Assembly: GCF_024171725.1 (NCBI RefSeq)
Contig: NZ_JAMTCG010000003.1
Location: 620,001-684,000, forward strand
Origin: Williamsia serinedens
GTDB taxonomy: Bacteria > Actinomycetota > Actinomycetes > Mycobacteriales > Mycobacteriaceae
Reading direction: 5' to 3'
Length of the DNA stretch: 64,000 nt
A program made the translations under genes and the position numbers. Below, piece after piece: positions 8,307-59,340 of the stretch (its first letter is position 1; every line of letters starts with the position of its first letter). Under the pieces are notes generated by a model that saw only the letters and a list, made by a program, of their open reading frames with translations, made no database searches and had not been told where the DNA came from.

Positions 8307-8388
8307 CCCCGCAGTCTGTCACGGGTGCTCCGTCCCACCCGGATCGCGCGATGTTTGAGACCGCGCCGTCGTGGCCATCCGCCACGTC

Positions 8389-8889
8389 ATGACCGTCGAA
8401 CCCGAACAACACCTGCCCGTCGACGAGGAGACCACCGAGCTGTGGGAGCGGCTCGCCGACTTGGCGCAACGCGGCGGACGCTCGATCGCGACCTGCGAGT
8501 CGCTGACGGCGGGCAACCTCGCGGCGCAACTCGGCCGGGCCCCGTCGTCGGGTGAGTGGTACGCGGGCGGGATCGTCGCCTACCGGTCGTCGGTGAAGCA
8601 CTCGCTGCTGCACGTCCCCGACGGTCCTGTCGTGAGCGAGGAGTCCGCCCGCACGATGGCGCACAGCACGGCGACGATGTTCGGCGCGGACCTCACCATC
8701 GCGCTGACCGGCGAGGCCGGCCCGGAGACCGACGAGGACGTGCCGCCGGGGACCGTGTGGGTCGGCGTCGTCGACCGCGGTCAGGCGAGCACCGAGCGCG
8801 TCGAGTTCGACGGCGATCCCGCCGACGTCCTCGCCGCGACCGTGCACTCCGCGGTCCGCATCCTGCTGGAGCACGCCGAGAAGTCCTGA
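8389..8889 (+). CDS. CinA-family nicotinamide-nucleotide amidohydrolase
   Basis: Single-domain CinA C-terminal (PncC-type) protein, expected to deamidate NMN to nicotinic acid mononucleotide in pyridine nucleotide recycling. Diagnostic stretches are SIATCESLTAGNLAAQLGRA and YAGGIVAYRSSVK near the N-terminus and ALTGEAGP followed by PPGTVWVGV later. I chose ATG at 8389 (166 aa); GTG at 8371 would add six residues and neither has a strong ribosome site. It starts 82 bp from the divergent ROK kinase. The gap downstream holds a 21-bp repeat array. Confidence 0.85.
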   Translation: MTVEPEQHLPVDEETTELWERLADLAQRGGRSIATCESLTAGNLAAQLGRAPSSGEWYAGGIVAYRSSVKHSLLHVPDGPVVSEESARTMAHSTATMFGADLTIALTGEAGPETDEDVPPGTVWVGVVDRGQASTERVEFDGDPADVLAATVHSAVRILLEHAEKS

Positions 8890-8910: not shown

Positions 8911-9092
8911 GCCGCCGAGCGTGCCGACACCGCCCGCCCAGCGTGCACTCGATCGCCGCGACCGTGCAGTGGCTCCTGGCGATCGTGCACATGCGCGATC
9001 CTCGACGGGATCGTCTGCACGCTCGACGGGATCTGCCGCACGCTCGGCGGGATCTGCCGCACGCTCGACGGGATCTGCCGCACGCTCGGCGA
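8911..9092. repeat. Inverted 21-bp-period array (element A)
   Basis: GTGC cores end at 8924, 8946, 8967 and 8988; the complementary GCAC cores start at 9017, 9038, 9059 and 9080. Spacing is 21 bp (once 22) and all four pairs are symmetric about ~9002.5, so the element is an imperfect ~180-nt hairpin of two four-unit arms. Right-arm units are near-identical (GCACGCTCGACGGGATC plus a variable tail); left-arm units are more diverged. It fills most of the 257-bp gap between the CinA gene and the DUF6328 gene. A 64-codon frame across it (8943-9137) is repeat-encoded and not credible as a gene. Confidence 0.8.
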
Positions 9093-9146: not shown

Positions 9147-9629
9147 ATGAACGACGACGAGTGGAACGAGCGCGCGCGGGGCGAGACCCCCACCGAGCGC
9201 CTCGACCGCAACTGGGCGTCGTTGCTGCAGGAGCTCCGCGTCATGCAGACCGGGATCCAACTGCTCACCGGCTTCCTGCTGACGCTGCCGTTCCAGGCGC
9301 GGTTCGCGCAGATCTCCGACCGCGACGTCGCCATCTACCTGGTCACGACCACCGCGTCCGTCGCCGCGACGATGCTCGTGGTGGCGCCGGTCGCGATGCA
9401 CCGGATCCTGTTCCGCCGCCACGCCGTCGCCATCCTGGTCCGGTGGGCCAACCGGCTGGCGATCGCCGGGTTGGGACTGCTCGCCGTGGCCGTCATCGGT
9501 GTCATCACGCTCATCTTCGACGTCGTCGTCGACCGCGGGACCGGACTCGTCGTCGGCGCCGTGATCGCCGTCGTCGCGATCACCCTCTGGATCGCGCTGC
9601 CGCTCGTCCTCCGCCGTCGGACGACATGA
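9147..9629 (+). CDS. DUF6328 family membrane protein
   Basis: 160-aa membrane protein of unknown function. A charged N-terminus (residues 1-~30) precedes four hydrophobic segments near 37-53, 63-88, 102-128 and 132-152; loops are short. The wording ELRVMQTGIQLLTGFLLTLPF and the tandem helices match what I recall of DUF6328. The stop overlaps the next gene as ATGA, so it heads a translationally coupled operon with two GAF proteins. Confidence 0.75.
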   Translation: MNDDEWNERARGETPTERLDRNWASLLQELRVMQTGIQLLTGFLLTLPFQARFAQISDRDVAIYLVTTTASVAATMLVVAPVAMHRILFRRHAVAILVRWANRLAIAGLGLLAVAVIGVITLIFDVVVDRGTGLVVGAVIAVVAITLWIALPLVLRRRTT

Positions 9630-34535: not shown

Positions 34536-34564
34536 CACGCCAGTCTGCCGGATGTGCTCCGACC

Positions 34565-34702
34565 GCCCACCCGATGGTTCCGGCTGCCCAACGAACGGTC
34601 CCTGCTGCCCAACAAATGGCGTACCCCCGTTCGTCGGGCGGCTGGAACCGTCTGTTGGGCGGTTGGAACCGTCTGTTGGGCGGTAGGAGCACTTCAGTGG
34701 GC
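34565..34702. repeat. Inverted 21-bp-period array (element B)
   Basis: GCCCAMC cores begin at 34565, 34586 and 34607; complementary cores (TCGGGC, TTGGGC, TTGGGC) end at 34639, 34660 and 34681. All steps are 21 bp and pairs are symmetric about 34623. A fourth right-hand core (GTGGGC, 34697-34702) continues the 21-bp step into the last codons of the MFS gene. The arms (e.g. CCGCCCAACAGACGG read in complement) can fold into an imperfect hairpin of ~115 nt. Confidence 0.78.
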
Positions 34703-37925: not shown

Positions 37926-38005
37926 GCACGGTCGGCGGGATCCACCGCACGGTCGGCGGGACCCACCGCACAGTCGGCGGGATCTGGTGCACGCTCGGCG
38001 GCGCG
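37926..38005. repeat. 21-bp-period array, single arm (element C)
   Basis: GCAC cores begin at 37926, 37947, 37968 and 37989, exactly 21 bp apart, each followed by a GGTCGGCGGGATC-like tail. The unit is close to that of element A (GCACGCTCGACGGGATC). No convincing inverted arm is seen, so it looks like a half element. It lies between two convergent genes. Confidence 0.75.
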
Positions 38006-51378: not shown

Positions 51379-51611
51379 TAACGGCGCGGTCACGGATCGG
51401 ACACGGGTCGGGTATCGGCCCGCTCACCAGCATCGACGCCGTCACCTCGCCGAAACACGGCCCCGACAGGCCCGATCGTTCGTCGTCCGAAGGTATGACT
51501 CGACGCGCTCGACCACGTAGCGTCCGAGGCGGCCACAGCAGTGGTCACCACCAAGCCAGGTCCTGTTCACCGCGCCGAACCTCGTTCCACGGACAGGACC
51601 ACGTCAGACCA

Positions 51612-51790
51612 GACTTCAGGAACGAGGACGGGGGACCCACCTCGTCGACGGACACCAGACGGTGAACGGGGTCGACGAGGATCGGGCCGGACAGACATCC
51701 GGATCCCTTGGGGTGAAGCTCCGCGACGCGGAGCCGGGCAACCTCTCAGCCCGAACCCGACAGCTCACCTCGCAGGCGCGTGGGGAGAGG
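51612..51790 (+). ncRNA. c-di-AMP riboswitch (ydaO-yuaA type) upstream of rpfA
   Basis: The leader contains the ydaO conserved blocks in order: CGGGGGACCCA (~51630), CTTGGGGTGAAGC (~51707), then CCCGAACCCGACAGCT followed by CACCTCGCAGGCG (to ~51778). The class senses c-di-AMP and is known to precede rpf-type cell wall genes in actinobacteria. The ends given are approximate. A purine-rich GGGGAGAGG follows at 51782-51790 and could pair with CCTCTC inside the aptamer, a possible switch; this is inference. Confidence 0.88.
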
Positions 51791-51804
51791 AAACACGAAC
51801 ACCT

Positions 51805-52506: not shown

Positions 52507-52540
52507 CCATTCCCGGGGCCTCTCAGGCCCGTTCTCGCCC

Positions 52541-52694
52541 GTCGAGTGGGCGTTTCCGGACGTCGAGTGGGCGGGTTAACACGTCGAGTGGGCGTTTCCA
52601 GACGTCGAGTGGGCGGAATCGGACGTCGAGTGTCGTCATCCGCCCAACCAACGTCCGGAATCGCCCAGTCGACGTCTGTAACCGCTCAGTCGAC
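52541..52694. repeat. Inverted 21-bp-period array (element D)
   Basis: GTCGAGTGGGCG-type cores begin at 52541, 52562, 52583, 52604 and 52625 (five units, 21 bp apart). Inverted cores (CGCCCAACCAAC, CGCCCAGTCGAC, CGCTCAGTCGAC) begin at 52641, 52662 and 52683. The last three left units and the three right units are symmetric about 52638.5. It fills the gap between rpfA and moaE (convergent genes). The unit shares CGTC and TGGGCG spacing with element B. Confidence 0.82.
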
Positions 52695-52704
52695 GGGTGA
52701 GGGG

Positions 52705-58473: not shown

Positions 58474-59340
58474 CGTGAGGACGTCGGCGCAGTAGCTCAC
58501 CGGGTTCGGGCGGCGATAGGAGAGCTGCTCCCCCGTCGAGCACACGTCCGGTGCCGACGACTCGACGCGCTGCTGCACCTTGATGACGGTCTTCGAGATC
58601 GCGAGACCCGTTGCGGAGCAGTCGACCTCGGCGAAGTCGGTGACCGACCCGGACTCCCCCGGCAGCGAATAGCACTTGCCCTCGCGCAGGTTCGGGGTGA
58701 GGCAGAGCCGACCCTTGCCGCGCTGGGTGAGGTGCAGAGCGTAATCGTCGGCGCACTGCGCGTTCTCGCCGACCTTCTGGCCGACGTAGAAGCTGAAGTC
58801 GGTCGACGAACAGTTCGCCCGGTGCGGCGTCGCCGCGTCGCTCGTCCCGGAGACGGTGATGCACTCCCCGGTGGCGGTGTCGTCGATGTCGGAGATCTCG
58901 CGGGACTGCACGAACAGCCCGGCGACGACGACCGCGACGACGAGTACCAGCGACACGACCGACGCGACGACGACCCACTTCACCCACGGGCGCTTCCGCG
59001 GGGGCTGGTCGCCCCACGGTGGCGGCGGCCCTCCCGGGAACGACGGCGGCGCACCGGGATACGTTCCGGGCGGCGGACCTCCCTGACCGGGGTACGCGGG
59101 GTGGGGACCCTGCGGATACGGCTGGTGCGGATACCCGCCGTACTGGGGCGGCTGGCCGTACTGCGGCTGCTGACCGTACTGGGGCTGCTGTCCGTACTGG
59201 GGTGCCGTCCCGGGGTCGGCCTGCCCGTACTGCGGGTACGTCGGCTGCTGATCGCCCGATGCATCCGGGGCGCGGCCCCATCCCGGGGACTCGCCGTTCT
59301 CGGGGCCCTGCGCGCCGGGGCCGTCCTGGGGACCGCTCAT
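58465..59340 (-). CDS. LppU/SCO3897-like membrane protein with PQYGQ repeats
   Basis: 291-aa protein. Residues 1-~115 are Pro/Gln/Tyr/Gly-rich with tandem PQYGQ units; one helix lies at ~122-144; the rest is an extracytoplasmic domain with six or more cysteines (ATGECITVSG, HRANCSSTDFSFYVG, CLTPNLREGKCYSL, VSYCADVLTSG). Similar proteins are grouped as the LppU/SCO3897 family. ATG at 59340. A paralogue with the same domain precedes it. Function unknown; the disordered region may bind other membrane proteins. Confidence 0.78.
   Translation of the reverse strand: MSGPQDGPGAQGPENGESPGWGRAPDASGDQQPTYPQYGQADPGTAPQYGQQPQYGQQPQYGQPPQYGGYPHQPYPQGPHPAYPGQGGPPPGTYPGAPPSFPGGPPPPWGDQPPRKRPWVKWVVVASVVSLVLVVAVVVAGLFVQSREISDIDDTATGECITVSGTSDAATPHRANCSSTDFSFYVGQKVGENAQCADDYALHLTQRGKGRLCLTPNLREGKCYSLPGESGSVTDFAEVDCSATGLAISKTVIKVQQRVESSAPDVCSTGEQLSYRRPNPVSYCADVLTSG

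Follow-up and report, generated by a model that had tools for sequence, protein, structure and literature searches.

The inverted array at 8911-9092 of the window, the 64,000-nt stretch of Williamsia serinedens DNA analysed here, is one copy of a dispersed, genome-wide family of arrays that occurs in Williamsia and in a small number of related genera. Each array consists of a 12-bp polar core that recurs at 21-22 bp intervals, arranged as a single arm or as two facing arms. We tentatively read the arrays, at somewhat less than an even chance, as rows of sequence-specific, probably DNA-binding sites that act as transcription boundaries or terminators at gene 3' ends. The sequence-only reading from which we started had described a single 'Element A' lying before a GAF/ANTAR operon. 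It is not a lone element, as ~100 similar arrays stand at unrelated genes, and the tie to the operon is unsupported, given that the array lies directly behind the stop codon of cinA.

Anatomy of the element and its family

The element occupies most of the 257-bp gap between a cinA-like gene (8371-8889, + strand; PF02464) and a codirectional DUF6328 gene downstream (9147-9629, +; PF19853), which stands ahead of a GAF-domain gene, also on the + strand. The named organisms nearest at this locus are Williamsia. GTGC starts at 8921, 8943, 8964 and 8985 and GCAC at 9017, 9038, 9059 and 9080, giving four mirror pairs with centres at 9002.0, 9002.5, 9002.5 and 9002.5; the four-by-four inverted array initially described is therefore real. 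Dinucleotide shuffles of 8911-9092 yielded at most two such pairs (0/2000 reached four), and lag-21 identity was 35/36 against 22/36 in the best of 2000 dinucleotide shuffles. The repeated word is longer than GTGC, being a 12-bp core read on one strand from 8913-8924 onward. The left arm comprises four rightward ('>') cores on the + strand, at 8913-8924 (CGCCGAGCGTGC, with the cinA stop 24 bp upstream), 8935-8946 (CGCCCAGCGTGC), 8956-8967 (..CGCGACCGTGC) and 8977-8988 (..GCGATCGTGC), the last two degenerate. The right arm carries four leftward ('<') cores on the - strand, alternating between GCACGCTCGACG (9017-9028 and 9059-9070) and GCACGCTCGGCG (9038-9049 and 9080-9091). Between them lies a centre of 28 bp (8989-9016), the sequence of which differs between elements and the length of which is typical of the family, the innermost facing cores (8977 and 9017) standing 40 bp apart start-to-start exactly as in other arrays. 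The right arm forms a 21-bp tandem of 4.2 copies matching at 92 %; divergence is greater in the left arm, in agreement with the initial description. No Rfam 15 model matched the element above its gathering score; the only such match in the window lay elsewhere, a c-di-AMP (ydaO/yuaA) riboswitch at 51597-51794 on the + strand (61.4 bits). The window also contains an 18-bp tandem repeat of 3.7 copies (GCCGTACTGGGGCTGCTG; 59137-59202) that no predicted gene covers; it probably marks the repetitive end of a coding region that gene prediction missed.

A search of the same genome returned 71 matches. Scanning sampled stretches for the core identified 67 arrays in this genome (the source of the own-genome counts given here), 19 in G119, which belongs to another genus of the same family as W. 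serinedens, and six in G038. A motif-free lag scan of 224 kb chosen regardless of the element found five strong 21/42-bp arrays, or ~22 per Mb, which puts the number at roughly 100 per genome. The units fell into two main classes, A (CGYCGASCGTGC) and C (CGTCGAGTGGGC), the latter with a variant B; both classes are polar and align in the same sense. Three further 21-bp arrays within the window represent all of these: a one-armed class A array ('<<<<', - strand; 37926-38000) in a convergent gap, which is one-armed in the sister species too; a two-armed class C array with CGTCGAGTGGGCGGTTCCAGA units (52540-52695), also in a convergent gap; and, as an exception, a two-armed class B array of outward polarity with CGTTGGGCGGTTGGAACCGTCT-type units (34560-34700) in a tandem (--) gap. 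The class A pair pattern exceeded background in 4 of the 31 genera sampled within the family and was no more frequent than chance in ~138 other Actinomycetes genomes, while class C/B was found mostly in the genus Williamsia itself. A search for plasmid carriage gave no match.

Two other kinds of repeat were observed. At L126:18064-18245 in the same genome, 20-21 bp units (GTGGAGCGnGAACCCTGkA) stand in a convergent gap beside a near-perfect hairpin of ~60 nt, possibly a further unit class that does fold. Four relatives carry 17-bp-period tandem repeats of unrelated units (L177:16248, L195:548, L200:12674 and L203:2064), three of them right behind the upstream stop codon; these may represent gene-end arrays of a second period class.

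The geometry of the arrays was regular. Cores on the same strand were 21 bp apart in 190 and 22 bp apart in 69 of 278 intervals in the own genome, with a few 23-bp or double steps, and 21 bp apart in 81 of 86 intervals in G119. This leaves spacers of 9-10 bp between cores, which are duplicated within arrays. Two-armed arrays nearly always had '>' cores on the left and '<' cores on the right, with innermost facing cores 39-40 bp apart start-to-start or at that distance plus a whole number of 21-bp steps (n=41; mean phase 18.7 of 21; Rayleigh p ~1e-12), the longer centres belonging to arrays in which a central core has decayed. The centres of 27-28 bp are non-palindromic and share no common sequence between elements. 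Their fixed length and free sequence across both unit classes and three genera point to a constraint that would act on the geometry of the DNA. Over four or five successive 22-bp steps the register slips away from a strict 10.5-bp helical phase, so a constraint can fall on neighbour spacing only and not on one face across the whole array; the 21-22 bp spacing is accordingly more compatible with contact between neighbouring proteins than with a strict single helical face. Identity between arrays averaged 0.83 in cores and 0.45 in spacers, and although core conservation is partly ascertained because most arrays were found via the core, lag scans and sister orthologues, which depend on it less, concur.

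Gene-end position and turnover between species

Arrays were concentrated at gene 3' ends. Measured onward from the stop codon, the first inward core lay at a median of ~19 bp in the own genome; the corresponding distance in G119 was 10 bp. Convergent gaps held 40 of the 67 own-genome arrays, codirectional (tandem) gaps 19 and a divergent gap one. In stretches free of selection bias, lag-21 arrays occupied 6 of ~43 convergent gaps versus 0 of 88 divergent gaps (hypergeometric p ~0.001, by hand), a count that leaves out one 20-bp and one 30-bp array (eight when these are included). Polarity followed transcription. Of the 16 one-armed arrays in tandem gaps, 13 are oriented so that the transcript of the upstream gene carries CGYCGASCGTGC (13:3; p 0.011), and simple two-armed arrays in the ++, +- and -- gaps of the own genome were '><' in 32 cases versus '<>' in three. 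Sites at gene ends that are polar toward incoming transcription are what a roadblock terminator would present.

Comparison with sister species separated the conserved from the labile features. Class was kept in all 19 arrays orthologous between W. serinedens and G044, the flanks of which are 86 % identical, and identity was 0.88 in cores and 0.51 in spacers, versus 0.81 and 0.39 for non-orthologous arrays. Sister-species loci thus retain class, core and geometry, including one-armed arrays that remain one-armed, whilst spacers and copy number turn over. At dispersed loci the class C spacers follow a species-wide dialect, mostly TTCCGGA in W. serinedens (G000) and mostly nYGGAGn in G044. Such fast spacer turnover beside a retained core and geometry leaves a clean natural record of how many loci evolve in concert.

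In the cinA-DUF6328 gap of sister Williamsia L009 and G044, the left arm and centre are well conserved and about one right-arm core is present, bearing out the suggestion that the left arm is the older. The near-identical right-arm units are thus a recent tandem expansion, which accounts for the asymmetry of the arms and makes gene conversion between the units superfluous. The expectation that related strains would share a periodic sequence in this gap holds for L009 and G044 but not for G094, where the same gene pair is separated by no array and the gap folds as a strong hairpin (z -4.5).

Arm pairing, hairpins and proposed role

Two-armed arrays folded far beyond shuffled sequences, with a mean z of -6.9 on one strand and -7.1 on the other. 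The window element was no exception at -107.3 kcal/mol (z -5.2), yet across the family the arms are not refined for pairing and fold strength of this order follows from the fact that any inverted array must fold. Native arms paired no better than swapped arms (-44.7 versus -44.7 kcal/mol; native better in 16 of 32; p 0.96), and the G/C-variable S position matched between arms at 0.43 against a chance value of 0.44, displaying no covariation. About half of the scored arrays were one-armed and unfolded (z -0.7). Given unrefined pairing, chance matching at S and the retention of one-armed arrays, the features under selection are the core word and the spacing of cores, not a stem, and these three tests weaken the RNA hairpin as the selected feature. 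A local hairpin within the unit (CCGC...GCGG), suggested by the class A sequence, was dropped since units of other species lack it. A Rho-type C-rich unstructured tract was likewise set aside, the composition of the unit, as read from its letters, having no C-over-G skew.

Conventional hairpins were scarce where arrays were present. A strong hairpin was found in 8 of 9 array-less convergent gaps of at least 50 bp, versus 6 of 41 array-bearing convergent gaps when hairpins outside the array were counted (p 4e-5); a stricter cut gave 5 of 9 versus 4 of 41 (p 0.005). These comparisons, between groups that differ in available length, are suggestive of arrays replacing hairpins at convergent gaps. 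Strong terminator-like hairpins also co-occur with arrays in 4 of 41 array-bearing convergent gaps.

In the protein-boundary reading that we favour, polar recognition sites of 12 bp, spaced by two DNA turns (21-22 bp), would start right behind the stop codon, and where transcription arrives from both sides there would usually be two facing arms around the 27-28 bp centre. A putative sequence-specific DNA-binding protein would occupy the sites side by side, and the protein-filled block would terminate or insulate transcription at the gene end as a roadblock terminator, in place of a hairpin terminator. The analysis shows the anatomy and geometry of the arrays, their 3'-end and convergent bias, the conservation of the core, the unrefined pairing of the arms and the scarcity of other hairpins, whereas a DNA-binding protein as the factor, and its halting of RNA polymerase, are inferred. 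Roadblocked polymerases can be terminated, for example by Mfd (PMC10310618). Points against this reading are the helical drift of runs of 22-bp steps, the strong RNA hairpins of two-armed arrays, the four array-bearing convergent gaps that also hold a terminator-like hairpin, the three arrays of outward polarity and the one array in a divergent gap. A broader version, which we consider rather unlikely as a whole, would make the family a lineage-restricted transcription-boundary system of Williamsia and some relatives, with a dedicated putative array-binding protein, two word classes, species dialects and bidirectional protein-dependent terminators at ~100 gene ends per chromosome.

The alternatives differ chiefly in what they make of the same observations. 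The arms, once transcribed, could form a long stem built from 12-bp helices and able, with no U-tract, to halt RNA polymerase arriving from either side, as reported for U-tract-free hairpin clusters (PMC8355165). The excess folding of two-armed arrays, the replacement of other hairpins in array-bearing convergent gaps and the plain hairpin in the same gap of G094 would all suit such a terminator. Against it stand the many one-armed, unfolded arrays that remain so in sister species, the indifference of pairing to swapped arms and of the S position to its partner, and a fixed centre and spacing that a hairpin would not need, and we regard it as unlikely. The strong convergent bias would suit arrays that bound a nucleoid or topoisomerase-type factor managing supercoils between convergent genes, by analogy with BIME-2 and gyrase in E. 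coli; gyrase and IHF both bind REP sequences located between genes that converge (PMC1525189). However, 19 of 67 arrays lie in tandem gaps close past stop codons, polarity follows the upstream gene and hairpin terminators are rare where arrays occur, so that a topological role appears improbable. Slightly more improbable still is a selfish or neutral origin, whereby a dispersed REP-like or minisatellite family survives between gene ends as the least harmful places. Rapid copy-number change, spacers homogeneous within arrays and presence that differs between species would accord with this, whereas the absence of a RAYT-type transposase from every array-bearing genome tested, the maintenance of centre length and spacing despite sequence drift, and the orthologous loci that keep class and core far better than spacer argue against it.

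High-GC actinobacteria have few U-tract terminators, and the way in which they end transcription is not firmly established; the array family makes the question testable.

Comparison with known systems

By place and abundance, the nearest known kind of element is the REP/BIME family of Enterobacteria and Pseudomonas, the short units of which lie between genes in hundreds of copies, are frequently paired in inverse orientation, prefer convergent ends and have a species-specific sequence (PMC1525189). The arrays are likewise intergenic, often inverted and species-specific, and share the extragenic, convergent 3'-end bias of REP/RAYT elements. They differ in having no unit hairpin, a strict 21-22 bp phasing, a fixed non-palindromic 27-28 bp centre and no RAYT. 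None of the 10 genomes searched, all array-bearing or of the same genus, contained a RAYT transposase (Y1_Tnp, PF01797); the sole match was in the array-less G022. A REP/RAYT origin was thus rejected, both for want of the gene and because the unit is a polar 12-bp core and not a palindromic hairpin (one-armed z ~-0.7). Searches of largely open-access literature turned up no account of arrays of this kind in Williamsia, Gordonia or Rhodococcus. Taken with the failed RAYT and hairpin-unit tests and the lack of an Rfam match, this makes the family a new sort of 'interspersed gene-end repeat', previously undescribed in the literature searched.

Plasmid replication iterons are polar sites every 21-22 bp in species-specific direct arrays. 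The arrays share this period, polarity, directness within arms and species specificity, but are chromosome-wide, located at gene 3' ends, often in two facing arms and without a link to replication genes. DNA uptake sequences are species-specific words of 10-12 bp, often found as inverted pairs in gene-end terminators. In contrast, isolated array cores are near background (class A: 6 in 224 kb of the own genome versus 2 expected, and 4 in 400 kb of G119 versus 1.7 expected) and nearly all excess cores lie within arrays; an uptake-type word was therefore rejected. A CRISPR-type array, in which repeats of at least 20 bp alternate with long unique spacers and cas genes are present, was rejected in view of the 12-bp core, the 9-10 bp spacers duplicated within arrays and the lack of any cas gene among classified neighbours.

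Among terminators, arrays of Reb1/TTF-I-type sites act as roadblocks in eukaryotes. Like intrinsic bidirectional terminators and hairpin clusters (PMC8355165), the arrays lie directly past stop codons, are common to convergent genes and need no U-tract, but their arms are unrefined for pairing and the one-armed arrays are structureless. Protein roadblock terminators (reviewed in PMC10310618) provide the working analogy, that of a polar row of sites at the gene end facing incoming polymerase, with the difference that the arrays stand at ~100 chromosomal loci of a bacterium and their binding protein is putative.
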